From positions 184,919-248,918 of the forward strand of contig NZ_JACSIT010000141.1 of the NCBI RefSeq assembly GCF_014349155.1: 64,000 nt of DNA, in the 5' to 3' direction. The notes under the pieces were generated by a model. That model did not search any database. It was not told the DNA's origin and saw only the letters and a program-made list of their open reading frames with translations. A program made the position numbers and the translations under genes. The stretch comes from Neolewinella lacunae (GTDB lineage: Bacteria > Bacteroidota > Bacteroidia > Chitinophagales > Saprospiraceae). Below, in pieces: positions 258 to 63,974 of this stretch (the first letter of the stretch is position 1; each line of letters opens with the position of its first letter).

Positions 258-275
258 GGGCGCGGACGCAGGTGC
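258..275 (+). repeat. Core interspersed repeat, copy 1
   Basis: GGGCGC-GGA-CGCAGGTGC, four bases after the stop of the first gene. It faces copy 2 at 419-436, forming an inverted pair about 180 bp long in the gap before uvrB. Confidence 0.85.
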
Positions 276-370
276 AACAGCTGTCGCGCTGGTCATCAGG
301 AAGTCCAAAAAAGTCGCTCCTCGTGTAGGTCCGGCTCGGATGGGGAGAACTTCCGCCGGGAGTTTCCTTT

Positions 371-436
371 CTTTGCTCCTTGTCCCTACTCCCCCCTTTG
401 GGGGGTCGGGGGGGGGGAGCACCTGCGGCCGCGCCC
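371..436 (-). repeat. Core repeat copy 2, long form with C/G hairpin
   Basis: Minus-strand reading: core GGGCGC-GGC-CGCAGGTGC (419-436), then a run of C, a hairpin pairing CTCCCCCC with GGGGGGAG, then TAGGGACAAGGAGCAAAG. The same arrangement is seen at 35206-35270, 42560-42622 and 63910-63974. The longest G runs could also fold as a G-quadruplex. The 255-522 gap holds only this repeat pair and the uvrB upstream region. Confidence 0.85.
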
Positions 437-522
437 TGAAATTCACCACCACCGCCCCAAAACAGCGAACCTTTTTATCAACATTTTTATTTACCTTAGC
501 GCAATATCCAACAAGTTAGCAC

Positions 523-2547
523 ATGGCTTTTGCCCTCAAGTCTCCCTTTTCGCCCACCGGCGACCAGCCCCAGGCCATCGAACAACTGGTGGGCAACGTA
601 CGGCGGGGTGAGCGCAGCCAGGTCCTGCTGGGCGTAACGGGTTCCGGCAAGACCTTTACGATGGCCAACACCATCGCCCAGCTCAACCGGCCGACCCTGG
701 TACTCACCCACAACAAGACGCTGACGGCCCAGCTCTACGGCGAATTCAAGGAATTTTTCCCCGATAACGCCGTCGAATACTTCGTCAGTTACTACGATTA
801 CTACCAGCCCGAGGCCTACATCGCCACCAGCGATACCTTCATCGAGAAAGACCTGGCCATCAACGAAGAGGTAGATAAACTCCGCCTCCGCGCCACGTCC
901 AACCTGCTGACGGGGCGGCGCGACATCATCATCGTAGCCTCCGTCAGTTGCATCTACGGTATGGGCAACCCCGAAGACTACAAATCGGGCATCATCCGCC
1001 TGAAAAAGGGCCAGGTGAAAAGCCGCAACGGTTTGCTCTACGACCTGGTGGACAGTCTTTACAGCCGCACTGAAACCGACTTCCGCCGCGCCACCTTTCG
1101 CGTGCGGGGGGATACGGTAGACATCCATTTGCCCTACGCCGAGTACGGCATGCGCATCATCTTTTTCGGCGATGAGATTGAGGCCATTGAGCGGATGGAG
1201 ATTGAAACCGGCAAACGGATCGAATCGCTGGAATTCGGCGCCATTTTTCCGGCCAACCTCTACGTCGCCCCCAAGGAAAGGCTCAACGGCATCCTGCGCG
1301 ACATCGAAGACGAGCTCTACGAACAGGAGCGCTACTTCGAGCGGGAGGGCCGCGTCCTGGAAGCCAAGCGGATCCACGAACGCGTGCAGTTTGACCTCGA
1401 AATGATGCGCGAACTGGGCTACTGCAACGGCGTGGAAAACTACAGCCGCTTTTTCGACCGCCGCAAACCGGGCACCCGCCCCTTCTGCCTGCTCGATTAT
1501 TTCCCGGATGATTACCTGATGATCATCGACGAGAGCCACGTGACCATCCCCCAGGTGCGGGGCATGTTTGGCGGCGACCGCGCCCGCAAGCTGAGCCTGG
1601 TCAATTTCGGCTTCCGCCTGCCCTCGGCGATGGACAACCGCCCCCTGAATTTTACCGAGTTTGAAAGCCTGATCAACCAGGTCATCTACGTCTCCGCCAC
1701 GCCCGGCGACTACGAACTGGAACAAACCGGCGGCGAGATCGTCGAGCAACTCATCCGCCCCACCGGCCTGATTGACCCGCCCATTGAGGTGCGCCCCAGC
1801 CTTCACCAGATCGATGACCTGCTGGAAGAGATCGATAACCGCGTCAAACGCAACGAGCGCGTCCTGGTCACCACCCTCACCAAACGGATGAGCGAAGAAC
1901 TGACCAAATACCTGGAAAACCTCAGCGTGAAAGTCCGCTACATCCACAGCGAGGTGGATACTATGGAGCGGGTGGAAATTTTGCGCGACCTCCGCCTCGG
2001 CGAATTCGACGTCCTGGTAGGCGTCAACCTCCTCCGCGAAGGACTGGATTTGCCCGAAGTATCGCTGGTAGCCATCATTGATGCGGATAAAGAAGGCTTC
2101 CTGCGCAACGAACGCAGCCTCACCCAAACGGCGGGCCGCGCTGCCCGCAACGTAAACGGTACCGTCATTTTCTACGCCGATAAAATCACGGACTCCATGC
2201 GGCGTACCATGGAGGAAACCAGCCGGCGGCGGGCCGTACAGCAGGCCTACAATGCTGCCAACAACATCACGCCCCAGAGCCTCAACAAGACCCGCGAGCA
2301 AATTATGGAGCGCGGCTCCATCCTCGATATCCGGGGCAAAAAATCCGCCAAGGCCTACGTCGAGCGCGTCGAAATCAGCAGCGCCGCCGATCCAGTCCTC
2401 AACTCCATGAGCCCCGAGCAGATCCAGCTGGCCATTGATGAGGCCGACCGCAAAATGCGCGCCGCCGCCAAAGAACTCGACTTCATGAGCGCCGCCAGCT
2501 ACCGCGATGAGGTCTTTGCCCTCAAGGCCCGCTTGAAGAATGGATAA
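523..2547 (+). CDS. uvrB: Excinuclease ABC subunit B (UvrB)
   Basis: 674 aa, the usual UvrB length. UvrB is the damage-verification helicase of nucleotide excision repair; it is loaded by UvrA and recruits UvrC. Walker A is GVTGSGKT at residues 37-44. The damage-probing beta-hairpin region with YFVSYYDYYQPEAYI follows at about 87-101. DESHVTIPQVRGMFGGDR and TAGRAARN match conserved helicase motifs. The last ~35 residues (AIDEADRKMRAAAKELDF) form the UVR domain that contacts UvrC. The start is the ATG giving MAFALKSPFSPTGDQ. It is a single-gene unit ending in a strong hairpin. Confidence 0.98.
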   Translation: MAFALKSPFSPTGDQPQAIEQLVGNVRRGERSQVLLGVTGSGKTFTMANTIAQLNRPTLVLTHNKTLTAQLYGEFKEFFPDNAVEYFVSYYDYYQPEAYIATSDTFIEKDLAINEEVDKLRLRATSNLLTGRRDIIIVASVSCIYGMGNPEDYKSGIIRLKKGQVKSRNGLLYDLVDSLYSRTETDFRRATFRVRGDTVDIHLPYAEYGMRIIFFGDEIEAIERMEIETGKRIESLEFGAIFPANLYVAPKERLNGILRDIEDELYEQERYFEREGRVLEAKRIHERVQFDLEMMRELGYCNGVENYSRFFDRRKPGTRPFCLLDYFPDDYLMIIDESHVTIPQVRGMFGGDRARKLSLVNFGFRLPSAMDNRPLNFTEFESLINQVIYVSATPGDYELEQTGGEIVEQLIRPTGLIDPPIEVRPSLHQIDDLLEEIDNRVKRNERVLVTTLTKRMSEELTKYLENLSVKVRYIHSEVDTMERVEILRDLRLGEFDVLVGVNLLREGLDLPEVSLVAIIDADKEGFLRNERSLTQTAGRAARNVNGTVIFYADKITDSMRRTMEETSRRRAVQQAYNAANNITPQSLNKTREQIMERGSILDIRGKKSAKAYVERVEISSAADPVLNSMSPEQIQLAIDEADRKMRAAAKELDFMSAASYRDEVFALKARLKNG

Positions 2548-2565
2548 TCCCTTGATAAAAATAAA

Positions 2566-2597
2566 AAGGCCCATTTCCCGGGTGGGAAATGGGCCTT
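2566..2597. terminator. Bidirectional hairpin terminator between uvrB and csbD-like gene
   Basis: Perfect 14-bp inverted repeat, AAGGCCCATTTCCC at 2566-2579 and GGGAAATGGGCCTT at 2584-2597, with a 4-nt loop. A/T-rich flanks on both sides suit termination of the convergent uvrB and csbD-like genes. Confidence 0.85.
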
Positions 2598-2619
2598 AAT
2601 GTTTTTGGGACTAGAAAGC

Positions 2620-2811
2620 TTAAAGGTTGTTGATCCAGCTTTTTACCTCTTCTTTGGTTTTGCCGGTTTTTTCCTGCAGGCGGCCGATCATTTCGTCCTC
2701 CTTACCTTCCCGGTAAGTAAGGTCGTCGTCGGTGAGGTTACCGTATTCCTGCTTCATTTTGCCTTTCAACTGGTTCCAGTTGCCTTTGACTTTATCTGAA
2801 AATGCACTCAT
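2620..2811 (-). CDS. CsbD-family stress protein (copy A)
   Basis: 63 aa, the typical size for CsbD. The motif KVKGNWNQLKGKMKQEYGNL followed by LTDDDL and a GKEDEMIGRLQEKTGKTKEE helix is characteristic of the family. CsbD proteins are small, soluble, abundant in general-stress regulons, and of unknown biochemical role. It is a paralogue of the gene at 2958-3149 (same length, same block order), which points to a tandem duplication. The upstream DNA is also conserved between the two copies, so they may be co-regulated; that is an inference. Confidence 0.9.
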   Translation of the reverse strand: MSAFSDKVKGNWNQLKGKMKQEYGNLTDDDLTYREGKEDEMIGRLQEKTGKTKEEVKSWINNL

Positions 2812-3200: not shown

Positions 3201-3260
3201 CGCCGTGGTGGCGGAATTATCCCGCCGCCGCCCGATTAATTACGGTAATTTCCCACGTCT

Positions 3261-3923
3261 TTATTCAAAAATTTCCAATCCTTCGAAGAGGCCATCGAGG
3301 TCATCAAAACTCTTGTAGCCTACCTTTTCCTCGCTGCTGCCGCGCACGGCCAGTCCGGCGGGGGCGAAATCCCGGACGATGGTTTTTGGGTCCTCCCCGC
3401 CAAGGTCAATCTGTAGGTAGCAGGGCCGCTGGGCCAGCAACTCGCGGAGTTCGGGCAGTCCGAAAGGGTGGCCGGCGGCCAGGTCTTGCCAGGTGATGCC
3501 GCCGGCTTCGAAGTCGAGTATCACACTGGCAGCCGTGGGGTGCTGGCGAAGATTTTCGCGCACGTCATCGGCACTTTCGTAACCCGCCACGGGCAGGTGG
3601 AGAAAGACCTTCATCCCGGCCGCGTGCAGCAACTGGGGCGCGGCCGCAGGTGCGGTGGCGGGTAACAGGGCAATGTTCACCCCCGCCGCCAGCAAAGTCT
3701 CCGCCCAGGGAGCCACCTCCGTTCGCACTCCGAGTTCGGCGACGATGGCGGGTCCTTCCACCCATTCCCGCAGGACATTGAACTGCTCCCAGCCAATGGC
3801 GTCGGGCAGGTCTTCGCCGAGGGGAAAGGCGAGGTAGTCTACGTCCCAGGCGGCGAAGTAGCGGGCGTCCGTCAGGTGGGTAATTCCGGCGGCAAAAACT
3901 TTAGCGGCGAGCATGGCGGGCAA
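3261..3923 (-). CDS. Degenerate TrpF-like (phosphoribosylanthranilate isomerase-like) TIM-barrel protein
   Basis: 220 aa. The N-terminus KVFAAGITHLTDARYFAAW resembles TrpF (KICGITxxxDARxAA), but the catalytic Cys-Gly is replaced by Phe-Ala-Ala. A later ILDFEAGGITWQDL resembles the TrpF LLD...GGTGxxFDW segment, again altered. The C-terminus GLAVRGSSEEKVGYKSFDDL fits the phosphate-binding end of the barrel. Loss of the Cys suggests it does not isomerise PRA, so a changed function is likely. No other trp gene is nearby. A core repeat lies inside the gene and encodes APAAAP. Confidence 0.6.
   Translation of the reverse strand: MPAMLAAKVFAAGITHLTDARYFAAWDVDYLAFPLGEDLPDAIGWEQFNVLREWVEGPAIVAELGVRTEVAPWAETLLAAGVNIALLPATAPAAAPQLLHAAGMKVFLHLPVAGYESADDVRENLRQHPTAASVILDFEAGGITWQDLAAGHPFGLPELRELLAQRPCYLQIDLGGEDPKTIVRDFAPAGLAVRGSSEEKVGYKSFDDLDGLFEGLEIFE
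3636..3653 (+). repeat. Core interspersed repeat inside the TrpF-like gene
   Basis: GGGCGC-GGC-CGCAGGTGC, antisense to the gene. On the coding strand it reads GCA CCT GCG GCC GCG CCC, giving APAAAP in a loop between barrel strands. The bases before it (ACTG) also match the copies at 26953 and 45413. Confidence 0.8.
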
Positions 3924-8118: not shown

Positions 8119-10125
8119 ATGACCGCTACGCTCCCGCCCCTGCGCTACGAAAATTACCGGGTCTCCGAAGACCAAATGCTCGCGCTGTTCACCGGCCTGC
8201 TGCGGCCGCGCCTCATCGAGGAAAAAATGCTGAAGCAACTGCGGCAGGGCATCATCTCCAAGTGGTTTTCGGGCATTGGCCAGGAGGCCATCAGCGTGGG
8301 TTGCACCGCCGCGCTCGCGCCCGATGAGTACATCTTCACGATGCACCGCAACCTGGGGGTTTTCACGGAGCGGAACGTGCCGCTGGACCGGCTTTTTGCC
8401 CAGTGGCAGGGCAAGCCCGGGGGCTATACCCTGGGCCGCGACCGCAGTTTTCACTTCGGCAGCCAGGCCGATAAGATCGTGGGGATGATCTCCCACCTCG
8501 GCCCCCAGCTGGCCCTGGCCGCCGGCGTAGCCCTCCGCCACAAGCTACAAGGGGAAGCCAAGGTCAGCCTGGCCTTCACCGGCGACGGCGGAACGAGCGA
8601 AGGCGACTTTCACGAGGCCCTCAACATCGCCGCCGTCTGGAAGCTGCCCGTCATCTTCGTCATCGAAAACAACGGCTACGGACTCTCTACCCCGGTCAGC
8701 GAACAATACGCCTGCAAAGAACTGGCCGACCGCGGCATCGGCTACGGCATGAAGGCCCTTTCCATTGATGGTAACAACATCCTGGAAGTGTACCAGACGG
8801 TCAGCGAGTTGGCCGAAGAAATGCGCGCCAACCCCGCCCCCGTCTTGCTGGAATGCCGGACCTTCCGCGTGCGGGGCCACGAGGAAGCCAGCGGCGTGAA
8901 ATACGTCCCGACGGCCGAAATTGAAGCCTGGACCCAGCGCGACCCCGTCAATAACTTCGCCGACTACCTAAAGGAAAAAGGCTTACTGACGGAAGAGCGT
9001 CGCAAGGCCCTCGAAAAATCCATTAAGGCCGAAATTGAAGCAGCCCTCAAAGCTGCCGCAGCGTTGCCACCTACCGTAGGGGATCCCGCCCGGGAGCTGG
9101 GTGACGTCTTTGCTCCCTTACCTTCCCCTGCACCTGCGTTCAGCGCCCAAAATACCGGCCCCAGCACAGAAGGGCGCTTCATCGACGCGATCACCGACGG
9201 GCTCCGCGAGGGCATGCGGCAGTACCCCGACCTGGTACTGATGGGGCAGGATATTGCCGACTACGGTGGTGTTTTCAAGATTACCGACGGCTTCGTGGCC
9301 GAGTTCGGTGCCGACCGCGTCCGCAATACGCCCCTGTGTGAGAGCGGTGTCATCGGGGTGGGCCTGGGCCTCTCCATTGCCGGCGGCAAAGCCATGGTGG
9401 AAATGCAGTTTGGCGATTTCGTTAGTTGCGGCTTCAACCAGATCGTGAACAACCTGGCCAAACTCCACTACCGCTGGGCGGAAAAAGCCGACGTAACGAT
9501 CCGCCTCCCCGTAGGCGGCGGCGTGGGCGCGGGGCCTTTCCACAGCCAGACGATGGAGGCCTGGTTTACCTCAGTGCCGGGCCTGAAAGTGGTCTACCCC
9601 AGCAATCCGGCGGATGCCAAGGGCCTGCTGATGGCGGCCCTGGCCGACCCCAATCCCGTGCTCTACTTTGAGCACAAGGGCCTCTACCGCTCACTCTCTG
9701 GGCCCATCCCCAGCGGCGATTACCGGGTGGAAATTGGCAAAGCCAGCGTTGTGCGGTCCGGCACGGCACTGAGCATCATTACCTACGGCATGGGCGTCCG
9801 TTGGGCGGAAAAAGCCGTGGAAAAGCTGGGCGTTGACGCCGAGATCCTCGACCTCCGCAGTCTGGCTCCGCTGGATTATGCGGCCATCGCGGCCACCGTC
9901 CGGCACACCCACCGCGCCCTGATTTTGCACGAGGCCAACCTGACGGGCGGCTTCGGTGGCGAACTGGCCGCCTGGATCGGCGAACACTGCTTTGAAGCCC
10001 TCGATGCGCCCGTCCGCCGCCTGGCTTCCCTGGATACCCCCGTGCCCTTTGCCGCTGCGCTGGAAGCCGATTACCTGCCGGAAAACCGCCTGGGCGCGGC
10101 CATCGAAGACTTGCTGGCGTACTAA
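8119..10125 (+). CDS. Fused alpha/beta 2-oxoacid dehydrogenase E1 component
   Basis: 668 aa. Residues ~1-325 are the E1 alpha part, with the thiamine-diphosphate motif GDGGTSEGDF...IENN at about 155-185 and RVRGHEEASGVKY near its end. Residues ~350-668 are the E1 beta part (VLMGQDIADYGGVFKITDGF, LCESGVIGVGLGLS, VRLP-type GGGVGAGPFHSQ). Fused E1 proteins of this kind are common in Bacteroidota and probably act on branched-chain 2-oxo acids with E2 and E3, which are not nearby. The linker carries a core repeat (9130-9148, APAFSA). The ATG at 8119 follows a good promoter. Confidence 0.93.
   Translation: MTATLPPLRYENYRVSEDQMLALFTGLLRPRLIEEKMLKQLRQGIISKWFSGIGQEAISVGCTAALAPDEYIFTMHRNLGVFTERNVPLDRLFAQWQGKPGGYTLGRDRSFHFGSQADKIVGMISHLGPQLALAAGVALRHKLQGEAKVSLAFTGDGGTSEGDFHEALNIAAVWKLPVIFVIENNGYGLSTPVSEQYACKELADRGIGYGMKALSIDGNNILEVYQTVSELAEEMRANPAPVLLECRTFRVRGHEEASGVKYVPTAEIEAWTQRDPVNNFADYLKEKGLLTEERRKALEKSIKAEIEAALKAAAALPPTVGDPARELGDVFAPLPSPAPAFSAQNTGPSTEGRFIDAITDGLREGMRQYPDLVLMGQDIADYGGVFKITDGFVAEFGADRVRNTPLCESGVIGVGLGLSIAGGKAMVEMQFGDFVSCGFNQIVNNLAKLHYRWAEKADVTIRLPVGGGVGAGPFHSQTMEAWFTSVPGLKVVYPSNPADAKGLLMAALADPNPVLYFEHKGLYRSLSGPIPSGDYRVEIGKASVVRSGTALSIITYGMGVRWAEKAVEKLGVDAEILDLRSLAPLDYAAIAATVRHTHRALILHEANLTGGFGGELAAWIGEHCFEALDAPVRRLASLDTPVPFAAALEADYLPENRLGAAIEDLLAY
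9130..9148 (-). repeat. Core repeat in the alpha-beta linker of E1
   Basis: Minus-strand reading GGGCGC-TGAA-CGCAGGTGC (4-nt centre). On the coding strand it gives APAFSA within the Pro/Ala-rich linker between the fused E1 subunits. Confidence 0.8.
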
Positions 10126-10682: not shown

Positions 10683-10700
10683 GGGCGCGGGCGCAGGTGC
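10683..10700 (+). repeat. Core repeat between DUF5606 and the ECF sigma gene
   Basis: GGGCGC-GGG-CGCAGGTGC, followed by a tail (GAAGAGCAAGGG) resembling the AGGAGCAAAGG end of the long copies. Confidence 0.8.
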
Positions 10701-13299: not shown

Positions 13300-14631
13300 T
13301 CAAGCTACCTCCGCAGCAACCAAACCCTCCGCGTCTGCTTCGCCAAGCTTCATCGGTACCAGGTGATTGATCCAGCTGTCTTCGGCGGCGAAGCGCACCT
13401 TGACGTAATTGTCGGTAAAGCCGTGTAAGACGCCCTCCTCTTTCGATTTTTCCAGCAGTACCGGGCGCACCTCCCCCGCGTGCTTTGCGTAGTGGGCCCG
13501 CCGTTTTTTCTCGCTCAGGATCATGAGCATCTTGTTGCGCCGCTTGCGTTCGGCCAGGGGGACGGCACCGTCCATCTCCGCCGCCGGCGTATTGGCCCGC
13601 TCGGAATAGGTGAAAACGTGGAGGTAACTCACGTCCAGCTCCTGGATGAAGCGGTACGTTTCCAGAAAGTCGGCCTCGGTCTCGCCGGGAAAACCGACGA
13701 TGACGTCGACGCCGATGCAGGCGTGGGGCAGCGCCCGGCGGATGTGGGCCACGCGGTCGGCGTAGAGCTCGCGGCGGTAGCGACGGCGCATCTGGGCCAG
13801 TTGCTTGTTGTTGCCCGACTGCAGGGGCAGGTGAAAATGGGGCGCAAAACGCTGGCTGTTGGCCACGAAGTCAATCACTTCGTCGGTACACAGATTAGGC
13901 TCGATGCTGGAAATCCGAAAACGGGTGATGCCCTCCACTTGGTCGAGGGCCCGGGCCAGGTCGACAAACAGGGCCTCCTTGCGGGGTCTTTCGCCTTCGA
14001 TGACGGAAGTTCCGTTGCCAAAATCGCCGATGTTGACACCGGTTAAAACGATCTCCTTCACCCCGCGGGCGGCAATGGCCTCGGCGTCGGCCACGATCTG
14101 TGCTACGGTGCTGCTGCGACTCTGCCCGCGCGCCAGGGGAATGGTGCAGAAAGTGCACTTGTAGTCGCAGCCGTCTTGCACCTTCAGGAAAGAGCGGGTG
14201 CGGTCACCAAAACTGAAGCTGGAAACGAAGGAATCGGCTTCTTTTACTTCGCCGGCCCTGACCATCCCTTTGCCGCTGCCCATCCCGATGCCATCGATGT
14301 AATCGAGGATGCGGAACTTTTCGGCGGCCCCCAGGACGAGGTCAACGCCCTCAATGTTGGCGATCTCCTCGGGTTTCAACTGGGCATAGCAGCCTACCAC
14401 AACAATCTTTGCACCTGCGTTCGCGCCCAAGGCCCGCCGTACGATGTTGCGGCACTTGCGGTCCGCAAAATCCGTCACCGAGCAAGTGTTGATCACCACC
14501 ACGTCGGCCCCTGCGCCAAAGTCCACCTCCTGGTAGCCCGCCTGCGTAAACTGCCGGCCAATGGCGCTCGTCTCGCTGTAGTTCAGCTTGCAGCCAAGGG
14601 TGTAAAAAGCCACGGTTCCGAGGGTAGACAT
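13300..14631 (-). CDS. mtaB: tRNA t6A37 methylthiotransferase MtaB
   Basis: 443 aa. MtaB makes ms2t6A at tRNA position 37 using two [4Fe-4S] clusters. The N-terminal UPF0004 domain has YTLGCKLNYSET, VVINTCSVTDFADRKCR and VVGCYAQ (cluster Cys). The radical-SAM motif is CDYKCTFCTIPLARGQSRS, with VLTGVNIGDFG following. The C-terminal ~70 residues form a TRAM-like domain. The ATG at 14631 gives MSTLGTVAFYTLGCKLN; the longer frame upstream is not coding. A core repeat falls in the loop ALGANAGAKIVVVG. It is divergent from a glycosyltransferase gene. Confidence 0.93.
   Translation of the reverse strand: MSTLGTVAFYTLGCKLNYSETSAIGRQFTQAGYQEVDFGAGADVVVINTCSVTDFADRKCRNIVRRALGANAGAKIVVVGCYAQLKPEEIANIEGVDLVLGAAEKFRILDYIDGIGMGSGKGMVRAGEVKEADSFVSSFSFGDRTRSFLKVQDGCDYKCTFCTIPLARGQSRSSTVAQIVADAEAIAARGVKEIVLTGVNIGDFGNGTSVIEGERPRKEALFVDLARALDQVEGITRFRISSIEPNLCTDEVIDFVANSQRFAPHFHLPLQSGNNKQLAQMRRRYRRELYADRVAHIRRALPHACIGVDVIVGFPGETEADFLETYRFIQELDVSYLHVFTYSERANTPAAEMDGAVPLAERKRRNKMLMILSEKKRRAHYAKHAGEVRPVLLEKSKEEGVLHGFTDNYVKVRFAAEDSWINHLVPMKLGEADAEGLVAAEVA
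14411..14428 (-). repeat. Core repeat inside mtaB
   Basis: Minus-strand reading GGGCGC-GAA-CGCAGGTGC, in the same orientation as the gene; it encodes GANAGA in the loop before the cluster cysteine strand. Confidence 0.75.
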
Positions 14632-14679
14632 GGGGCAGCGGGGGTCAATTTGGCCGGGCCATGCCCGGTTGTTGTTGTT

Positions 14680-14697
14680 TTGCGCGGACGCGGGTGC
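14680..14697 (+). repeat. Degenerate core repeat between mtaB and glycosyltransferase
   Basis: TTGCGC-GGA-CGCGGGTGC, three changes from the consensus arms. Confidence 0.5.
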
Positions 14698-14771
14698 AAA
14701 GATCGGGATATTGAGCAGGGTAAGCAAGCGCCGCAATGGTTGGTCCGTTTTTCTCCCGGCCCGTGGCGCAC

Positions 14772-14779
14772 TACCTTTG
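14772..14779 (+). promoter_or_regulatory. -7 promoter element of the glycosyltransferase gene, very short leader
   Basis: TACCTTTG eight bases before the ATG at 14788; transcription would start within a few bases of the start codon. Confidence 0.65.
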
Positions 14780-14787
14780 CCCCCGTT

Positions 14788-15528
14788 ATGTACAAGAACA
14801 AGAAAGTCGTCGTCGTCATGCCCGCCTACAACGCGGCGCTGACGCTGGAAAAGACCTACGCCGAAGTTCCCCGCGATCTGGTCGACGAAGTCATCCTCTG
14901 CGACGACGCCAGCAAAGACAATACCTCCGCCCTGGCCAGGCAGTTGGGCGTAGACCACGTCATCATCCACCCCGCCAACCGGGGCTACGGCGGCAACCAG
15001 AAGTCGCTTTACAACAAAGCCCTCGAGATCGGTGCCGACATCGTCATCATGGTCCACCCCGATTACCAGTACACCCCACTGCTGATTCCGGCCATGTGCA
15101 ACATCATCGGCGAAGGACTTTACCCCGTAGTGTTGGGCAGCCGCATCCTGGGCAAGGGAGCACTTAAGGGCGGGATGCCGCTCTACAAATACGTGGCCAA
15201 CCGCTTCCTGACCGCCATACAGAACCTGCTGGTCAACTACAAACTCAGCGAATACCACACGGGCTACCGCGCCTTCAGCCGCGAAGTGCTCGAAAGGATC
15301 GACTTCAACGCCAATGACGACGACTTCGTCTTCGACAACGAGATGCTTTCGCAGATCATCTACCACGGTTTTGACATTGCCGAGGTGACCTGCCCCACCA
15401 AATACTTCGAAGAAGCGAGCTCCATCAATTTTACCCGCAGCGCCAAGTATGGCCTGGGCGTGCTGCGGGTTTCCGTCCTGCACCGCCTCAACAAATGGGG
15501 ACTGGCCAACAGTCGGATTTACCGCTGA
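14788..15528 (+). CDS. Family 2 glycosyltransferase, polyprenol-phosphate-sugar synthase type
   Basis: 246 aa. KKVVVVMPAYNAALTLEKTY and EVILCDDASKDNT form the GT2 fold; IIHPANRGYGGNQKSLYNKA and IVIMVHPDYQYTP (DxD-like) and VLGSRILGKGALKGGMPLYK follow. The order matches the DPM1/DPG-synthase-like group that loads a sugar on a polyprenyl phosphate. There is no C-terminal membrane segment. Donor and acceptor are unknown. The start at 14788 is set by the promoter at 14772 and a clean MYKNKKVVVV N-terminus; the longer upstream frame runs antisense through mtaB. Confidence 0.87.
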   Translation: MYKNKKVVVVMPAYNAALTLEKTYAEVPRDLVDEVILCDDASKDNTSALARQLGVDHVIIHPANRGYGGNQKSLYNKALEIGADIVIMVHPDYQYTPLLIPAMCNIIGEGLYPVVLGSRILGKGALKGGMPLYKYVANRFLTAIQNLLVNYKLSEYHTGYRAFSREVLERIDFNANDDDFVFDNEMLSQIIYHGFDIAEVTCPTKYFEEASSINFTRSAKYGLGVLRVSVLHRLNKWGLANSRIYR

Positions 15529-18753: not shown

Positions 18754-18771
18754 GGGCGCGGCCGCAGGTGC
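18754..18771 (+). repeat. Core repeat upstream of the ROK kinase gene
   Basis: GGGCGC-GGC-CGCAGGTGC, followed by a tail GTTGAAGGAGCAGGG that is nearly repeated beside the copy at 63063-63080. Confidence 0.85.
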
Positions 18772-19867: not shown

Positions 19868-19885
19868 GCACCTGCGGCAGCGCCG
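19868..19885 (-). repeat. Core repeat upstream of the cytochrome gene
   Basis: Minus-strand reading CGGCGC-TGC-CGCAGGTGC (first base changed), between the DUF5777 and cytochrome genes and 20 bases before the cytochrome start. Confidence 0.6.
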
Positions 19886-25316: not shown

Positions 25317-27362
25317 ATGTCACTCTTCCCCACTGCCTCCCTCCTCACCCTCTTGCTGGTGCTGACCGCCTGCGGTGGCCCCCGCCCCGCCGCTCCGCCG
25401 ACGACCGACGGGCCAGAACTGCCCTACAAGAAACTCGTCCAAAGCGGCGAAGCCGAAGAGCGCAGCGGCAACTTCCTCTCCGCTGCCCATTACTTCCGGC
25501 GGGCCTACGCCCAGCGGCCCCGCGATCAGGCCATCCTGTACCGTGCCGCCGAGCGTTACGTTCAGGTTCGCGACTACCGCAATGCCGCCGATGCTTTGCA
25601 CCTGCTGGAACCCGACGAAGACCGCTGGCCACTACTCGGCCTCCAGCTGGGCCGCGCCCTCAAACAAGACGGCCGCTACGAAGAAGCACGCCGCGAACTG
25701 GCCCTTTTCCTAGAAACCTACAATGGCGGCGACCGCCCCATCGTAGCCGAGATCGTCCGCAACGAACTCGCCGGCATCACCCTGGCCCGGCAGCGCACGG
25801 GCGAGGAAACCCTGATCGACATCGACCGCCCGGGGCGGGGCATCAACACGAGCGCCGACGAATTCGGGGCGGTCGCCGTAGCCGGAGACCAGCTCTTTTT
25901 CACCAGCACGGCGGGCGGCCAAAGCCGCCTGTACCAGAGCCGCCTCCAGGCCAAAGAATGGACCAAAGCCACCGTCCCGCCCGGCTTCCCCGTCATCGCC
26001 GAAGGCACCTTTGGCACGGGAAGCCTCAGCCCCGACGGCCGCATCTTTTTCTTCACCATCTGCAGCGGCCAAACCGGGGAGGAAAAAACCAACCGCTGCG
26101 AAATCTTCCGCGGCGAACGCAGTACGAGCGGCAACTGGAGCCAACCCGAACCCCTCGACACCCGCATCAACCTGCCAGGCAGCAACAACGCTTACCCCTG
26201 CGTAGTGACGGCCCCCGACGGCAGCCTCGCGCTCTACTTCGCCAGCGACCGGCCCGGCGGACGGGGCGGCATGGACCTCTACCTGGCCGAATCCACCGAC
26301 CCGGCCAATCCCTCCGCCTTTTCGGACCCCGCCAACCTGGGCACCAGCATCAACACCCTGAGCAACGAAATCACCCCCGCCTACGACGCCGAAAGCGGAG
26401 CGCTTTACTTCGCCAGCAACGGTCACCCCGGCTACGGCGGGCTCGACATTTTCCGCTCCCACGGCACCTTCGGCAACTTCCAGTCTCCCGTCAATCTGGG
26501 GGAACCCGTCAACTCTGCGGCCGACGACTACGGCCTGTCCCTCGTTGCGGGTGGCGGAACGGGTTACCTGACGAGCAACCGTGCCTTCCCGCCCGCTAAG
26601 CCCGGAACCACCGAAACCGACATTTTTACCCTCAATTTCCGCGCCGGTCGCGCCCGCCTTAAGGCCACCGTTTACGACAATACCACGGGCGGCGAACTCC
26701 CCGGCGTGGAGGTGGAGCTGCTCGAAATTGGCCCCACGGGCAGCCTGAGCAGCATCGCAAAACGCACCTTTCCCACTGGGGTGTACACTTTTGATTTGCA
26801 GCCCGGGGCGCGCTACCGCGTCCTCATCCGCCGGGAGGGCTACCAGGGGGCCGAGTACCAGGTCAGTACCAGTTCGCAGGGTTCTTCGCTCTACGGGCAG
26901 CCCGTTTTTTTGCGGCGGCAAGCCCTGCCCAATCCGGAGCCCGGCAGTACTGGGGCGCAGTCGCAGGTGCTGGGTCCGGGATTGGGAAACAGTCCGTCTG
27001 CCCCCAGCCCCGGCCTGCCACCCACTACGCCGCCCGCATCCCCCGCGCCCAACGTTACGCCCCCTGCACCTGCGTCCAGCGCCCCCGCCACTGCCCCCCC
27101 CGCTCCGGTTGTTTACCGCATCCAGATCAGTGCCGAGGGCAGTTTTGACCCCGCTGCCGGAAAGTACGAAGCGGTGCGCGCCATCGGCGACCTCGCCTCC
27201 GAGCCCATCCCCGGCCAACGCCTGCTCCGCATTACGGTGGGCTATTTCACCGACCCGGCTGCCGCTAAAAATGCCCTGGCCCAGGTCCACGCCCGCGGCT
27301 TCCCTACGGCCTTCGTCGTCCGTTACGACGCCGGCGTGCGCTACGGCCGGGTGCGCCTGTGA
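25317..27362 (+). CDS. TPR-PD40 lipoprotein with proline-rich linker and SPOR-like end
   Basis: 681 aa. Signal peptide with lipobox LVLTAC. Residues ~35-155 form TPR-like helices; ~180-440 are WD40-like (PD40) propeller units (GSLSPDGRIFFFT, LALYFASDRPGGRGGMDLY, GALYFASNGHPGYGGLDIF). A carboxypeptidase-regulatory-like domain (KATVYDNTTGGELPGVEVEL) follows to ~545. A Pro/Ala-rich linker ends in a SPOR-like domain (VVYRIQISAEGSF...AFVVRYDAG). The order resembles PorE-type T9SS lipoproteins, with SPOR in place of OmpA; both would hold peptidoglycan. Two core repeats lie in the linker. Confidence 0.7.
   Translation: MSLFPTASLLTLLLVLTACGGPRPAAPPTTDGPELPYKKLVQSGEAEERSGNFLSAAHYFRRAYAQRPRDQAILYRAAERYVQVRDYRNAADALHLLEPDEDRWPLLGLQLGRALKQDGRYEEARRELALFLETYNGGDRPIVAEIVRNELAGITLARQRTGEETLIDIDRPGRGINTSADEFGAVAVAGDQLFFTSTAGGQSRLYQSRLQAKEWTKATVPPGFPVIAEGTFGTGSLSPDGRIFFFTICSGQTGEEKTNRCEIFRGERSTSGNWSQPEPLDTRINLPGSNNAYPCVVTAPDGSLALYFASDRPGGRGGMDLYLAESTDPANPSAFSDPANLGTSINTLSNEITPAYDAESGALYFASNGHPGYGGLDIFRSHGTFGNFQSPVNLGEPVNSAADDYGLSLVAGGGTGYLTSNRAFPPAKPGTTETDIFTLNFRAGRARLKATVYDNTTGGELPGVEVELLEIGPTGSLSSIAKRTFPTGVYTFDLQPGARYRVLIRREGYQGAEYQVSTSSQGSSLYGQPVFLRRQALPNPEPGSTGAQSQVLGPGLGNSPSAPSPGLPPTTPPASPAPNVTPPAPASSAPATAPPAPVVYRIQISAEGSFDPAAGKYEAVRAIGDLASEPIPGQRLLRITVGYFTDPAAAKNALAQVHARGFPTAFVVRYDAGVRYGRVRL
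26953..26970 (+). repeat. Core repeat in the lipoprotein linker, copy 1
   Basis: GGGCGC-AGT-CGCAGGTGC, preceded by GCAGTACTG as in fni. Encodes TGAQSQV. It faces the copy at 27066-27084. Confidence 0.8.
27066..27084 (-). repeat. Core repeat in the lipoprotein linker, copy 2
   Basis: Minus-strand reading GGGCGC-TGGA-CGCAGGTGC; encodes APASSAP on the coding strand. It forms an inverted pair of 132 bp with the previous copy. Confidence 0.8.
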
Positions 27363-29387: not shown

Positions 29388-29487
29388 GGGCGCGGCCGCA
29401 GGTGCAAAAAAAGGATGAGGAGAAGGGAAGACGGGAGCTGCGTCCTTCGCCTCTCGCCCAACGTTCCCTGCACCTGCGCCCGCGCCC
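29388..29487. repeat. Inverted pair of core repeats between the two SSF genes
   Basis: GGGCGC-GGC-CGCAGGTGC at 29388-29405 (+) and GGGCGC-GGG-CGCAGGTGC at 29470-29487 (-). The 64 bp between is purine-rich (AAAAAAAGGATGAGGAGAAG) and non-coding. It is the shortest of the four facing pairs. Confidence 0.85.
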
Positions 29488-34873: not shown

Positions 34874-34891
34874 GGGCGCGGCCGCAGGTGC
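34874..34891 (+). repeat. Core repeat, left member of the pair around the 34.9-35.2 kb element
   Basis: GGGCGC-GGC-CGCAGGTGC. It faces the long-form copy at 35206-35270, 397 bp outer to outer. Confidence 0.85.
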
Positions 34892-35205: not shown

Positions 35206-35270
35206 CTTTCCTTGCTCCTTATCCAATCTCCCCCCATCGGGGGGGCGGGGGGGAGCACCTGCGGCCGCGC
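35206..35270 (-). repeat. Core repeat, long form, beside pyrD
   Basis: Minus-strand reading: core with the first two G changed (..GCGC-GGC-CGCAGGTGC, 35255-35270), then the C/G hairpin block and AAGGAGCAAGG. Ends 16 bp after the pyrD stop. Confidence 0.8.
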
Positions 35271-35285
35271 AAAAAAAGGACGAAA

Positions 35286-42559: not shown

Positions 42560-42622
42560 GGGCGCGTACGCAGGTGCTCCCCCCCGGCCCCCCGAAGGGG
42601 GGAGTAGGGATAGCGAGCAATG
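42560..42622 (+). repeat. Core repeat, long form, between der and the ABC transporter gene
   Basis: GGGCGC-GTA-CGCAGGTGC, then TCCCCCCC...CCCCCC-GAA-GGGGGGAGTAGGGA and a GAGCAATGG tail. Same plan as at 63910. Confidence 0.85.
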
Positions 42623-51060: not shown

Positions 51061-51078
51061 GGGCGCTGGCGCAGGTGC
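51061..51078 (+). repeat. Core repeat upstream of the conserved 474-aa protein gene
   Basis: GGGCGC-TGG-CGCAGGTGC, 17 bases before the minus-strand start. Tail GGGAGCAATGGGGGGG resembles the long copies. Confidence 0.85.
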
Positions 51079-51984: not shown

Positions 51985-53325
51985 GTGCCACTCCGCCATC
52001 TCTCCACCGCCGAACTGCTGCGCCGCTACCTCAACGGTGCGCTCACCGCCCCTGAGGAGGCCGAGCTGGAGCGGCGTGCCCGGGAAGATGACGCTACCGC
52101 CGAGGCCCTGCAAGGACTGCGGCAGCACCCCGCCGAAGACCACCTGGTCCGCACCCAACGCCTGAAGCTTGCCGCCCGCGCCGCTGCCAGCAACCAAGCC
52201 GTAGCCGAAAAAAAGAAACGCCCGCTGGTCTTTTACCTGAGCGCGGCCGCAGCCGTTCTCTTGCTCGTCACCGCCATCTTCTTGCTGCCGCGCTGGACGG
52301 ACGAAGGCTCCGCCGACCTCGCCCTGCGCAACGCCCCGGAAGCGGCACCAGCAACGGAAGACGCCGAAGCGGACGCCCCGCTGGAAGACCCGGAAGCAAC
52401 GGAAATGGCTCCCGCAGCGGAAAGCCTCGCGCTGGAAGCGGAAAGCCCCTCCGCCACAAGGGAGCCCGCCGCACGGGAGGCCCCGCCGTCCCCCGCTCCT
52501 GCGTCCAATACCCCGCTCCTGCGTCCGCGCCCTGCGGAATCGGTTGCCGCACCACCGCCGCCGCCGCCCCCAACCCTTCAGTCGCCCGCATCCCCACCAG
52601 GAGGCAGGACCGAGAAACGTGCACCGGCCAGGGACCCGGAGCGGACCGCCCCGGCACCAGTAACCGCCGCTCCCGCCCGCGCTGATGCCCCCCTGCGCGC
52701 CCGGACCCAGGCCGCCCCCGCGCCCGCCCCAATGGAAGAGGTAGCCGCTACCAGCGCGCCCAGCGCCAAGCTCCTGGAAGGCCGCATCACCAGCGAAGAC
52801 GGCCAACCCATTGCCAACGCCCTGGTGCGCCTGCCCGGCCTGCCCCTGGGCGAACGCACCGATACCAACGGCATTTTTCGCCTGGAAGTAGACGCCGTAG
52901 CCTCCGTCCTGGAGATTTCTCACCCCGAGTACGAAGCGGAGCAACTGGACCTCAACTCCAGCGACGAAGACCTTCAGATCAGCCTGGAGAAAAAACAGCA
53001 GAGCAGCCAGCAAGCACCCGAAGTAGCCTGGGGCGTTACCAAAGTGCCCGTAGACCAGGGGCCCGGCCTGGCCATCCCGGAAGAGGGCTACCAGGCCCTG
53101 CGGCAGCGCATTGAGGCCAACCGCCCGGCGGACGTCCCGCCGGGAAAGGTGAAACTCAGCTTCCTGGTGCACCCCGATGGCCGCCTGAGCAACTTCGTTT
53201 TCCGAGGTCGCCCCAGCCAGGCGACCATGGACTACGTAGGCGGCACCATCGCCAGAACCTCCATCTGGGAGGTGCTGCGTAGTGATGATCCGGTGCGGGT
53301 GTATTTTAAGGTGGTCCTGAAGTGA
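51985..53325 (+). CDS. Membrane protein with anti-sigma-like N-terminus and TonB-like C-terminus
   Basis: 446 aa from a GTG that follows the sigma stop. Residues ~5-45 (LSTAELLRRYLNGALTAPEE and AELERRARED) resemble the zinc-less anti-sigma N-terminus of Bacteroidota. One membrane helix is at ~80-100 (LVFYLSAAAAVLLLVTAIFL). A long Pro/Ala/Glu-rich linker follows (~105-265), then a carboxypeptidase-regulatory-like domain (LEGRITSEDGQPIANALVRL), and a C-terminal domain (VPPGKVKLSFLVHPDGRLSN) that recalls TonB. Signal reception across the periplasm is a plausible inference. Confidence 0.75.
   Translation: MPLRHLSTAELLRRYLNGALTAPEEAELERRAREDDATAEALQGLRQHPAEDHLVRTQRLKLAARAAASNQAVAEKKKRPLVFYLSAAAAVLLLVTAIFLLPRWTDEGSADLALRNAPEAAPATEDAEADAPLEDPEATEMAPAAESLALEAESPSATREPAAREAPPSPAPASNTPLLRPRPAESVAAPPPPPPPTLQSPASPPGGRTEKRAPARDPERTAPAPVTAAPARADAPLRARTQAAPAPAPMEEVAATSAPSAKLLEGRITSEDGQPIANALVRLPGLPLGERTDTNGIFRLEVDAVASVLEISHPEYEAEQLDLNSSDEDLQISLEKKQQSSQQAPEVAWGVTKVPVDQGPGLAIPEEGYQALRQRIEANRPADVPPGKVKLSFLVHPDGRLSNFVFRGRPSQATMDYVGGTIARTSIWEVLRSDDPVRVYFKVVLK
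52515..52532 (-). repeat. Variant core repeat in the anti-sigma-like linker
   Basis: Minus-strand reading GGGCGC-GGA-CGCAGGAGC, one arm change. CCCGCTCCTGCGTCC is directly repeated 18 bp upstream. Encodes PLLRPRP. Confidence 0.55.
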
Positions 53326-56963: not shown

Positions 56964-57413
56964 GGTGTGAATACTTCAGAAAAGATTAGAGAGTAGAGCG
57001 TGTGGTAGGTAAGTAGACAGCCGCTTTGCAGTTCCTTTGGCAGCATCAACTACGGGTTTAGGGGGAGGTGCACGGGAAAATGAGAAAATTTTAAAAAAAG
57101 CCGAAAAAAGGGCAATTTTGGCGATATTCAGTCAAAAAACCCTCTCCGTGGCCTTTCATCGCTCTTCATCTTTTTCTGGCACCTGCGGTCGCGCCCAAGA
57201 TGATTAAATATCATACTTTCAGGAAAATGGGCCGTGTTTAACCCGTTTGAGGGGTTTATTTGTTAGGTGAAAGAAGCAAACCCAAAACATCTTTCTCCCC
57301 TGACTGCGGCTTCCGTGCCTTGGTACGCGTGGTTTTGATCGTCCTCAGGCCGCCCCCGGGTGGTTTGGACCATCGAATTCCTCACAAGCGCTTAATTTAG
57401 CCGCCCGGTAATT
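56964..57413. other. 450-bp intergenic region upstream of rel and of the T9SS gene
   Basis: No gene or RNA recognised. It is A/T-richer than average around 57070-57130 (AAAATTTTAAAAAAAG), as expected for divergent promoters, and holds one core repeat at 57179-57196. No exact TAnnTTTG with good spacing before either gene was found, so promoters are not marked. Confidence 0.5.
57179..57196 (-). repeat. Core repeat between the T9SS and rel genes
   Basis: Minus-strand reading GGGCGC-GAC-CGCAGGTGC. Confidence 0.8.
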
Positions 57414-60830: not shown

Positions 60831-60848
60831 GGGCGCTGACGCAGGTGC
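60831..60848 (+). repeat. Core repeat between DUF3127 and apaG
   Basis: GGGCGC-TGA-CGCAGGTGC. Confidence 0.85.
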
Positions 60849-62310: not shown

Positions 62311-62345
62311 GGCTTTGGCGGATAGCCCGCCACCTTTCTTCCCGC

Positions 62346-62389
62346 AACGGGGCTGTGCAGGCATACTGTGCAGCCCCGTTGTTTTTTTT
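62346..62389 (+). terminator. Terminator after the DUF2911 gene
   Basis: AACGGGGCTG (62346-62355) pairs with CAGCCCCGTT (62371-62380), followed by GTTTTTTTT. Confidence 0.85.
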
Positions 62390-62469
62390 GCTGGAGCACC
62401 CGCCTTCAACCATGGCCGAGAAGCGGTGTTGTTCACCCTGTCTTTCTCTCTGATCCTCAAGGTAACCGT

Positions 62470-63006: not shown

Positions 63007-63062
63007 CCCCGGAGGAGAGAAAGACCGGGCCGGAACCCCCCCCTGCTCCTTCAACTTCCCTG

Positions 63063-63080
63063 GCACCTGCGGCCGCGCCC
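63063..63080 (-). repeat. Core repeat between msrC and scpA
   Basis: Minus-strand reading GGGCGC-GGC-CGCAGGTGC, followed by GAAGTTGAAGGAGCAGGG, nearly the same tail as at 18754. Confidence 0.85.
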
Positions 63081-63112
63081 CTATCCAGACACCAAGCCAG
63101 GCAAAAACTCTT

Positions 63113-63120
63113 TACCTTCG
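63113..63120 (+). promoter_or_regulatory. -7-like element of scpA, probable leaderless start
   Basis: TACCTTCG (7 of 8 against TAnnTTTG), then CGCCA and the ATG at 63126. Confidence 0.5.
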
Positions 63121-63125
63121 CGCCA

Positions 63126-63905
63126 ATGGCCGCCGGATACACGATAAAACTGCCCCAGTTCGAAGGTCCCTTCGACTTGCTCCTGTTCTTCATCGAGCGG
63201 GACGAGCTGGATATTTACGACATTCCCATTGCGAAGGTCACCGACGATTTTCTGGACTACATGCGGCAGGCCGAGGCGATGGACATTGACCTGGCCAGCG
63301 AATTTGTGTTGGTGGCCGCCACCCTGTGCCGCATCAAGGCCAAGATCCTCATCCCCCGCAAGGCCGTTGACGAACAGGGCAATGAGATTGACCCCCGCGA
63401 GGAACTCGTTTCCCGCCTGCTGGAGTACAAGCGCTATAAATCCGTGCTGGAAGAACTCCGCACCCTGGAAACGGAGCGGGGAATGCGCAATTACCGCGGC
63501 AACATCACCGACGAGCTGGCGCAGATTGCCGTGCGCGCGCTGGTGGACGTCGAGCTGGAAAGCGTCACCCTTTTCAAGCTGCTGAAGGCCTACGAAAGCC
63601 TGCTCGGCAAACTGGAGGAGGCCAGCAAACGGCCCGTCGTGCACGAGATTGCCCAGTTCAGCCACACCATCGAAGAGCAGCAAATCCGGATCATGGAGAT
63701 GGTCAGCGCCGTGCGTTTTGGCAAAGCGCGGCCCAGTTTTGCGGACCTTTTCAGCGTTTGCAAGACCCGTATCCACGCCATCGTTACCTTCCTCGGTTTG
63801 CTGGAATTGCTCAACGCGCGGGAGATCAGCATCGTCCCCGGCGAGGGACTTAACAATTTCTGGCTGGAGCCGGCCGGGGGAGAGAGCGGCAGCGAAGAGG
63901 AATAA
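63126..63905 (+). CDS. scpA: Segregation and condensation protein A (ScpA kleisin)
   Basis: 259 aa. ScpA bridges the SMC heads in the chromosome condensin complex. The N-terminus has KLPQFEGPFDLLLFFIERDE and IYDIPIAKVTDDFLDYMRQA, the kleisin signature, then FVLVAATLCRIKAKILIPRK. The C-terminal winged helix contains SVCKTRIHAIVTFLGLLELL and the acidic tail GGESGSEEE. scpB is not adjacent. The start is at 63126 (MAAGYTIKLPQF), supported by the element at 63113. Confidence 0.95.
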   Translation: MAAGYTIKLPQFEGPFDLLLFFIERDELDIYDIPIAKVTDDFLDYMRQAEAMDIDLASEFVLVAATLCRIKAKILIPRKAVDEQGNEIDPREELVSRLLEYKRYKSVLEELRTLETERGMRNYRGNITDELAQIAVRALVDVELESVTLFKLLKAYESLLGKLEEASKRPVVHEIAQFSHTIEEQQIRIMEMVSAVRFGKARPSFADLFSVCKTRIHAIVTFLGLLELLNAREISIVPGEGLNNFWLEPAGGESGSEEE

Positions 63906-63909
63906 AACA

Positions 63910-63974
63910 GGGCGCGGCCGCAGGTGCTCCCCCCCGACCCCCGGAGGGGGGAGTAGGGACAAGGAGCAAAGGGA
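63910..63974 (+). repeat. Core repeat, long form, after scpA
   Basis: GGGCGC-GGC-CGCAGGTGC, then CTCCCCCC (63927-63934) able to pair with GGGGGGAG (63946-63953), then TAGGGACAAGGAGCAAAGG. The clearest example of the long form. The last ~26 bases of the window show no feature. Confidence 0.85.

Follow-up and report, generated by a model that had tools for sequence, protein, structure and literature searches.

Neolewinella keeps a two-part DNA word throughout its genomes, in both orientations and mostly between genes, holds it against drift in several genes, and re-spells it lineage by lineage. In Neolewinella lacunae the word is GGGCGC-N3-CGCAGGTGC, which is 18 bp long, non-palindromic and followed by a purine-rich 3' flank. 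A first-pass annotation of a 64-kb stretch of this genome (hereafter the window) had described 20 intact or almost intact and five degenerate copies; the observation is real, and its interpretation was right in part. We found 19 exact copies of GGGCGC-N3/4-CGCAGGTGC in the window, 17 with N3 and two with N4 (9130 and 27066), and the remaining "intact" copy, at 35255, carries two mismatches. Three of the degenerate copies (19868, 46067 and 52515) hold up with one mismatch each, but those at 6543 and 14680, with about three, are not above noise, because that level yields dozens of other matches in the window over gaps of 2 to 5. The copies, all located by motif search, are as follows (further methods in brackets):

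258..275, + strand: exact, GGA centre, facing 419 (pair analysis)
419..436, - strand: exact, GGC centre, followed by a C-run hairpin insert
3636..3653, + strand: exact, inside a - strand ORF, where it reads APAAAP (crude gene calling)
9130..9148, - strand: exact, 4-nt centre, in an ORF like pyruvate dehydrogenase E1 alpha/beta, encoding APAFSAQ between its two halves
10683..10700, + strand: exact
14411..14428, - strand: exact, within mtaB, where it encodes LGANAGA and is conserved in place through much of the genus (orthologue comparison)
18754..18771, + strand: exact
19868..19885, - strand: one mismatch
26953..26970, + strand: exact, within ORF 25317-27362, facing 27066
27066..27084, - strand: exact, 4-nt centre, within ORF 25317-27362
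29388..29405, + strand: exact, left-hand member of the facing pair with 29470 (folding)
29470..29487, - strand: exact, right half of the facing pair with 29388, hairpin of -55.3 kcal/mol (folding)
34874..34891, + strand: exact
35255..35272, - strand: two left-arm mismatches (TTGCGC), adjoining a C-run hairpin
42560..42577, + strand: exact, opening a composite of roughly 64 bp that includes a C-run hairpin and recurs elsewhere in the genome at 88-93% identity
45413..45430, + strand: exact, in a type 2 IPP isomerase-like gene (GARPQVQ), in a variable-length loop
46067..46084, - strand: one mismatch (CGCGGGTGC)
51061..51078, + strand: exact
52515..52532, - strand: one mismatch
57179..57196, - strand: exact
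60831..60848, + strand: exact
63063..63080, - strand: exact
63910..63927, + strand: exact, followed by a C-run hairpin and purine-rich flank

As the annotation had supposed, chance does not account for these numbers. An order-3 Markov model (gaps 3 and 4, both strands) predicts about 0.016 copies in a 461 kb sample of the host genome, where we counted 104, and by scaling about 0.002 in the 64 kb of the window. Across the 5.8 Mb genome the N3 form occurs 1057 times (538 forward, 519 reverse), exact copies lie at a density of about one per 5.5 kb, and the reversed-pattern control gave 0, an over-representation of the kind that marks the uptake sequences DUS and USS. With these counts, neither a number near the shuffled expectation nor confinement to the window, the two contrary outcomes that the annotation had named, was observed. 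No family over threshold was found by Rfam in the window, and a literature search turned up no described family matching this word, in agreement with the annotation.

The description of fixed arms around a free centre needs qualification. The freedom of the centre is limited: GGC, GGA, TGA and similar triplets prevail in the 104-copy sample, and the length of the centre is a dialect trait in three other genomes of the genus (G006, G001 and G010). Three features had gone unmentioned: the purine-rich 3' flank, the C-run hairpin after the word, and inverted pairs of copies that face each other. Among copies without an insert, G occupies position +4 of the flank in 85% of the 52 intergenic ones and in 97% of the 30 coding ones. 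A C-run hairpin lies directly 3' of the word in 22 of the 104 sampled copies, and 25 of 33 C-run hairpins are placed right behind a copy.

We considered spacing, as well as strand and gene context, for which the annotation had proposed checks. KOPS and Chi are strand-biased motifs. Within three contigs we saw no strand bias (C123, 33+/31-; C22, 13+/16-; C19, 6+/5-), which speaks against an oriented motif of the Chi or KOPS type. Intergenic copies make up 71 of the 104 sampled, versus 19 expected; the other 33 lie within called genes, a coding share that is approximate because our own crude codon-usage caller misplaces the strand of hisD (at L121:8903). Genic copies occur in both orientations and several reading frames, as expected of a DNA-level signal. 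Spacing on C123 is more even than random (CV 0.60 versus 0.92-0.96). We note a single motif desert, C22 125951-145997 (G+C 0.527), which contains a Schlafen-type helicase gene; a viral scan gave single matches for most contigs among the matches listed.

Where adjacent exact copies lie within 200 bp of each other, nine of 11 pairs face, and one of these nine pairs is located in an ORF. Three facing pairs that we folded were each more stable than every shuffle (z of -10.8, -7.3 and -4.5), and the intergenic pairs probably double as transcription terminators. Such hairpins, and the C-run hairpins directly behind copies, would also fit a word that acts mainly at the RNA level or in transcription, as a terminator, a processing site or a regulator operator. 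We regard that as very improbable: single copies predominate, genic copies point both ways, and 66 copies with two called neighbours fall into convergent, tandem and divergent intergenic regions (12, 36 and 18) much as length predicts (15.3, 34.9 and 15.8).

REP/BIME elements are short G+C-rich intergenic repeats that form facing pairs and go with a RAYT transposase. The Neolewinella word resembles them in base composition, in its intergenic excess and in its BIME-like pairs, and Y1 transposase domains are found in 20 of the 21 genus genomes. In addition, intergenic composites of about 64 bp (word plus C-run hairpin) recur at 88-93% identity as if each had been copied whole, which is a trait of mobile repeats. 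The word might be a mini-repeat, selfish or tolerated, that belongs with REP/BIME elements or small dispersed repeats and is mobilised by a transposase acting in trans; the annotation had likewise offered a transposase end. Y1 search, flank scan and orthologue alignments all disfavour this. The one genome with no Y1 match, G018 (assembly 95% complete, 880 contigs), has 486 copies; one of the host's own two Y1 loci, L173, has no copy within 1.5 kb; and although 13 of 30 Y1 loci have some copy (up to two mismatches, about 1.5 kb), none shows a regular flanking pair of the kind expected around a RAYT gene.

Conserved genes that carry the word bear on the same question. We compared orthologues from relatives not preselected by the word, 20 for hisD, 18 for mtaB, 20 for a DapL-like gene and the nine higher-scoring of 20 for dprA, and in none of them is there a gap or an insert at the word. 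Codon identity at conserved residues exceeds that of the flank in hisD (0.79 versus 0.53; reached by 1 of 236 other windows), in mtaB (0.77 versus 0.54; 1 of 190) and, among those nine orthologues, in dprA (0.80 versus 0.49; 0 of 80). The DapL-like gene shows no such excess (107 of 200 windows equal or exceed its value), and the word is missing there in 11 of 20 relatives. The copies in tyrS and idi2 sit in variable-length loops. In hisD, both arms are intact in six of 20 relatives, and 18 of the 20 retain a right arm that fits CGC[A/G]GG[T/A]GC. In mtaB, GGCGC..CGCAGGTGC is kept in 11 of 18, a dialect form in three and neither in four. In eight of nine dprA relatives the site ends in CGCAGGAGC, a single base away from the host's own word, and dprA of G015 has GGCGCGGACGCAGGTGC at the site, read as GADAGA in place of ARPQV. 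The word is thus maintained in hisD, mtaB and dprA beyond what protein constraint requires. It also changes dialect in place, at the same codons, in mtaB of G020, G017 and G004 and in hisD of G004, and insertion therefore cannot be the source of that change. Spread as a mobile repeat is accordingly an explanation already weakened, and we think it improbable.

Some version of the word is present in all 21 Neolewinella genomes examined. The commonest form is GGGCGC or GGGCGG-N3-CGC[A/G]GG[T/A]GC, spelled lineage by lineage, and the dialects track phylogeny in a tree of 19 genomes. Genome-wide, G011 has 355 copies of GGGCGG/CGCAGGTGC and G019 has 348 of GGGCGC/CGCGGGTGC, and GGGCGG/CGCGGGAGC occurs 172 times in G004 and 61 times in its sister G017. 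Canonical counts had pointed to G001, G006 and G010 as having lost the system, a reading that we rejected when 10-mer enrichment and spacer scans revealed their own spellings. The spacer is longer in G006 (nine copies with one extra base and ten with two, versus four canonical, in a 209 kb sample), and a sample of its sister G001 has the longer-spacer form GGCGGCGGAGCGCAGGTA. G010 has a word of its own, GGCTNNCAAAGTAGCANNG, with 420 copies there and 0 in the other 20 genomes; 3' of its right arm this word follows the same M-R-N-G grammar. Outside the genus, we found eight matches in seven of 283 genomes of the same order. The sister genera G021-G024, sampled at 33-174 kb each, gave no clear word in a 10-mer scan of limited power, which also failed to rank the word first in some genus members with small samples, G008, G020 and G012 among them; the best 10-mer word of G021 was without a shared context.

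Codon conservation in three genes, in-place dialect switching and clade-specific spellings lend support to two of the annotation's proposals, a putative protein-binding site and a repeat kept by selection on its arms. That the word is read by a protein is, on these sequence comparisons, well supported. The two arms and the length of the spacer vary separately, from which we infer that the reader would be one protein, or a protein pair, with two flexibly joined DNA-contacting modules.

Which known system does this resemble? HIP1 of cyanobacteria, an 8-bp palindrome highly iterated in and between genes, is similar in its iteration and its genic and intergenic placement; the Neolewinella word, in contrast, is two-part and non-palindromic, and measures 18 bp plus flank. 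In Pasteurellaceae, the USS core carries a compositionally biased, A/T-rich 3' flank. USS share with our word an over-represented core, a biased 3' flank and more than one subtype, but the sequence is unrelated, the flank here is purine-rich rather than A/T-rich, and no pilus ATPase was recognised. The Neisseria DUS comes closest in form: the parts of PMC3630211 and PMC2397512 available to us describe dialects, inverted-pair terminators and a mostly intergenic location, and there, as here, hundreds to thousands of copies lie in and between genes, with inverted pairs and lineage-specific spellings (PMC3630211, PMC2397512). The differences are the phylum, the two-part structure with its unspecified centre, the density of one exact copy in about 5.5 kb, and the absence of a recognised type IV pilus ATPase; DUS are contiguous, and a word with an evolving spacer length would be unusual among them.

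By analogy with Neisseria and Haemophilus, the genus-wide word suggests a built-in tag for recognising own-kind DNA, and DNA uptake is its most likely job, to which we give even chances. A surface or periplasmic receptor would bind the word on free DNA, kin DNA would be imported via ComEC, DprA and RecA would assist its recombination, and the current spelling would be spread and homogenised by molecular drive, through biased uptake. DprA is present in the host, where dprA itself bears a copy. In the source portions available, uptake sequences are tied to Neisseriaceae, Pasteurellaceae and type IV pili. Looking for competence machinery with a type IV pilus and a pilin receptor, as in DUS and USS systems, we found ComEC in 21 of 21 genomes, which for that reason does not discriminate, and recognised no type IV pilus or T2SS ATPase: PF00437 matches occur in 20 of 21 genomes and are all partial, 11 of them barely above the 24.9-bit cut-off (maximum 25.5 bits), and the single match that we identified, the host's own within the window, is a Clp/AAA+ protein. 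To our knowledge, uptake-sequence receptors are pilins. With ComEC and DprA present and no such ATPase recognised, the reader probably differs from the known type. We know of no competence in Neolewinella, and a literature search found none. Elsewhere in Bacteroidota, Riemerella columbina favours its own DNA in transformation, according to the available text of PMC7965970.

The lack of a recognised type IV pilus would fit equally well if the word were a chromosomal site for a cytoplasmic DNA-binding protein (a nucleoid organiser, or a segregation or replication factor) that co-evolves with hundreds of sites kept by selection for binding. The even spacing on C123, the codon conservation and the co-evolving two-part spelling suit such a protein just as well. 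We nevertheless consider it unlikely, if plausible: contigs show no strand bias of the KOPS or Chi kind, facing hairpin pairs would be unexpected, and hundreds of selected sites would be hard to re-spell without a drive mechanism. For DNA uptake, we hold it quite possible, though somewhat short of an even chance, that Neolewinella represents a third independent origin of uptake-like self-recognition, in Bacteroidota, with a two-part word, an evolving spacer, a receptor other than a type IV pilin, and a dialect for every lineage, so that the word would hinder species from exchanging genes.

A comparable uptake system in Bacteroidota would allow the origin of such words, by drive or by selection, to be tested independently. 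Across 21 species there are dialects, some with strongly differing spelling or spacer; if they serve uptake, they would show how a reader can shift its specificity and take hundreds of sites along with it, and would test whether words isolate species sexually. Should the reader instead be a chromosome protein, the genus would be one of few examples in which a protein and hundreds of its sites have co-evolved simultaneously. The dialect series makes either reading testable in culturable marine isolates.

We counted the two-part word GGGCGC-N3/4-CGCAGGTGC (left arm, free spacer, right arm; the N3 form is canonical) in the window and in the 5.8 Mb host genome (G000). The repeat is real: of the 20 copies that the first-pass annotation had called intact or nearly so, 19 are exact and one, at 35255, is off by two mismatches. 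Three of the five copies it had called degenerate stand with one mismatch, and the other two, at 6543 and 14680, are at noise level. The genome-wide count that it had proposed gave 1057 exact N3 copies in the host (538 forward, 519 reverse) and 0 for the reversed control, showing that the word is not restricted to the window. Where an order-3 Markov model predicts 0.016 copies, a 461 kb host sample (the window plus 397 kb, ~8% of the genome) holds 104 (N3 or N4). By score, the strongest 10-mer enrichment in this sample is that of AACTATGAACTATG arrays, which occur at ~15 separate places.

By crude gene calls, 71 of the 104 copies are intergenic versus 19 expected. Where a copy has called genes on both sides (66 copies), the region is convergent, tandem or divergent in 12, 36 and 18 cases (expected: 15.3, 34.9 and 15.8). 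No strand bias was found within three sampled contigs. On contig C123 of the host, the 64 copies are spaced more evenly than chance would give: the CV is 0.60 versus 0.92 for random placement, or 0.96 at equal intergenic share, and no more than 0.1% of simulations reached such evenness. Another host contig has a 20 kb stretch, C22:125951-145997 (pieces L136 and L137), that lacks the word with one mismatch allowed. It has a G+C of 0.527, carries a Schlafen group 3 helicase/peptidase S24-like gene and is possibly acquired DNA.

When copies are aligned, the word turns out to be the first part of a longer site. Its 3' flank is purine-rich: +2 is R, and +4 is G in 85% of the 52 intergenic and 97% of the 30 coding copies that lack an insert. 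AAGG follows at about +6 to +9, and after it comes a less marked GGAGCAA-like stretch. A C-run hairpin lies directly 3' of the core in 22 of the 104 sampled copies, and 25 of the 33 such hairpins found with one pattern in the 461 kb sample lie directly behind a word copy. This C-run/G-run hairpin, ~27 bp long and fixed in place, separates the core from the 3' flank, and composites of word and hairpin (~64 bp) recur at 88-93% identity. In the window, it occurs at four copies:

419, C-run/G-run hairpin behind the word
35255, C-run/G-run hairpin behind the word
42560, C-run/G-run hairpin behind the word
63910, C-run/G-run hairpin behind the word

Folding of a single copy with its hairpin was no better than shuffles (z 0.26). 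Of eleven neighbour pairs within 200 bp, nine face each other and two are back to back; three facing pairs folded at -74, -65.8 and -55.3 kcal/mol (z -10.8, -7.3 and -4.5).

The exact word is present in 19 of 20 genus relatives (G001-G020) and in 0 of 19 other genomes. A looser pattern, GGGCGSNNNCGCRGGTGC, which spans four spellings and not every possible dialect, has 1084 matches in the host and 8 in 7 of 283 non-genus genomes of the order (~0.03 per genome). Samples of four sister genera (G021-G024; 33 to 174 kb each, of limited power) gave no clear word. Among the matches listed, Neolewinella agarilytica, N. persica, N. aurantiaca, N. antarctica and Lewinella sp. W8 carry the word, and there are many single matches in other phyla, too. 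We infer that the genus of the host and its relatives is Neolewinella. We found no report of such a word in Lewinella, Neolewinella or Saprospiraceae among the matches listed from the open-licence literature.

Copies per genome of four spellings, both strands (reversed controls 0 to 5 per strand). Order: canonical; GGGCGG..CGCAGGTGC; GGGCGG..CGCGGGAGC; GGGCGC..CGCGGGTGC.
G000: 1057; 4; 0; 23
G002: 496; 5; 0; 90
G013: 448; 1; 0; 295
G005: 399; 249; 0; 56
G014: 487; 84; 0; 107
G018: 486; 51; 0; 55
G019: 108; 0; 0; 348
G011: 97; 355; 1; 37
G008: 92; 155; 2; 52
G017: 18; 149; 61; 9
G004: 7; 28; 172; 12
G012: 45; 39; 3; 128
G016: 42; 21; 0; 105
G020: 54; 62; 1; 62
G015: 112; 3; 0; 19
G003: 426; 27; 0; 64
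G007: 272; 38; 0; 58
G009: 259; 3; 0; 32
G006: 13; 4; 2; 1
G001: 0; 1; 0; 1
G010: 1; 0; 0; 0

These dialects track clades: G004+G017, G008+G011 and G012+G016 have supports of 0.987, 0.993 and 0.996 in a tree of four concatenated protein pieces from 19 genomes (G009 and G019, missing a needed piece, were left out). The canonical-poor G001, G006 and G010 use other dialects. That of G001 is GGCGGCGGAGCGCAGGTA, with GGAGCGCAGG occurring 27 times in 228 kb versus 0.96 expected. In its sister G006, the pattern GGGCG-N(s)-CGCRGGWGC occurs 4, 9 and 10 times at s = 4, 5 and 6 (209 kb), compared with 103, 4 and 2 times in the host (461 kb); in G015, which adjoins this clade, the counts for s = 4 and s = 6 are 5 and 4 (52 kb). 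The longer-spacer version in G006 rests on this pattern and the 209 kb sample, in which a plain 10-mer scan gave no such word. The G006 sample (L333-L340 and others) also holds an interspersed repeat, AAAGCTCCAAAAGCACTGAATCC, in ~12 copies per 209 kb, and G015 has an array of period ~147 bp bearing the inverted repeat GTCGCCTTTTCCCAAAAGGCGAC (L230:12000-14900). In G010, the most divergent member, the word is GGCTNNCAAAGTAGCANNG; it occurs 420 times in that genome and 0 times in the other 20. The 3' side of this word matches the canonical grammar (A/C, R, N, then G in 96% of 56), a layout suggesting that the two are homologous.

A family scan identified word carriers as hisD, mtaB, dprA, an LL-diaminopimelate aminotransferase-like (DapL-like) gene, tyrS, type 2 IPP isomerase and a pyruvate dehydrogenase E1 alpha/beta-like ORF; several pieces were below the whole-protein cut-off, some because they are only fragments, and two other word-bearing pieces had no family match. 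Copies within conserved genes sit in place and were not inserted: where the word lies, neither gap nor insert is seen in 20 hisD, 18 mtaB, 20 DapL-like and 9 dprA genus orthologues. A gap occurs at the word site in 6 of 11 IPP isomerases, and the tyrS copy sits in a variable-length loop. We measured codon identity at conserved amino acids in relatives picked regardless of the word. For hisD, the word scored 0.79 and its flank 0.53, and 1 of 236 other windows was as high as the word. The corresponding figures are 0.77, 0.54 and 1 of 190 for mtaB, and 0.80, 0.49 and 0 of 80 for dprA (from five codons in 9 of 20 orthologues). No excess was seen for the DapL-like gene (0.48 and 0.48; 107 of 200 windows as high), because the word is missing in 11 of 20 relatives.

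Both arms are present in hisD of 6 of 20 relatives, and the right arm, CGC[A/G]GG[T/A]GC, in 18. In mtaB, 11 of 18 relatives have GGCGC-N3-CGCAGGTGC, the first G of the word being A in some; dialect spellings are GGCGGGAACGCAGGTGC (G020), GGCGGGAACGCAGGAGC (G017) and GGCGGGAACGCGGGAGC (G004), and G012, G016, G010 and G001 have other residues at equal length. The mtaB-matching frame in the window (13300-15483, reverse strand) is ~290 codons longer 5' than the MtaB model, an excess that is probably open frame and no real fusion. The word encodes GADAGA (hisD), ARPQV (dprA, idi2), APAxAP (linkers) and CTCVSAQ (likely signal peptides). As genes use it in either orientation and in several reading frames, it is the DNA that is under constraint. 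At the dprA site, 8 of 9 relatives have the one-base variant CGCAGGAGC; dprA of G015 (L500, compared with L122:2722) has the word at the same place in another frame, giving GADAGA and not ARPQV. In four genes, the word in reverse orientation lies 37-46 nt past the called start, in the same frame, and encodes the end of a likely signal peptide:

L130:2558, reversed word, peptide CTCVSAQ
L135:9278, reversed word, peptide GTCVSAQ
L140:1320, reversed word, peptide CTCGSAQ
L140:8163, reversed word, peptide GTCVRAQ

What the data show is a two-part word that stays put in several genes while its spelling changes from lineage to lineage. This calls for a sequence-specific reader and for something that propagates the current spelling. 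Uptake sequences offer both, as a receptor that prefers the word and as transformation that swaps out alleles lacking it. The main rival to an uptake reading is that the word is the site of a chromosome-binding protein, which we consider rather unlikely.

With respect to uptake, all 21 genomes have ComEC, and the host dprA itself bears a word copy. The word layout agrees with that of the Neisseria DUS, for which the excerpts of PMC3630211 and PMC2397512 describe dialects by phylogeny, inverted-pair terminators and a mostly intergenic location; the latter excerpt argues that many new DUS enter by recombination and not by point mutation. Riemerella columbina, also of the Bacteroidota, prefers its own DNA in uptake, but its candidate top k-mers are A/T-rich, unlike the Neolewinella word (excerpt of PMC7965970). 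We recognised no type IV pilus or T2SS ATPase: PF00437 matches were only partial (20 of 21 genomes), and in 11 genomes marginally over the cut-off. The in-window PF00437 match of the host is a Clp/AAA+ protein. Because no such ATPase was recognised, and no report of Neolewinella transformation was found among the matches listed from the open-licence literature, we do not file the word as a DUS. We nevertheless regard it as most likely, at roughly even confidence and by analogy, that the word works like one: a receptor favouring the word, with transformation replacing word-less alleles, would spread the current spelling.
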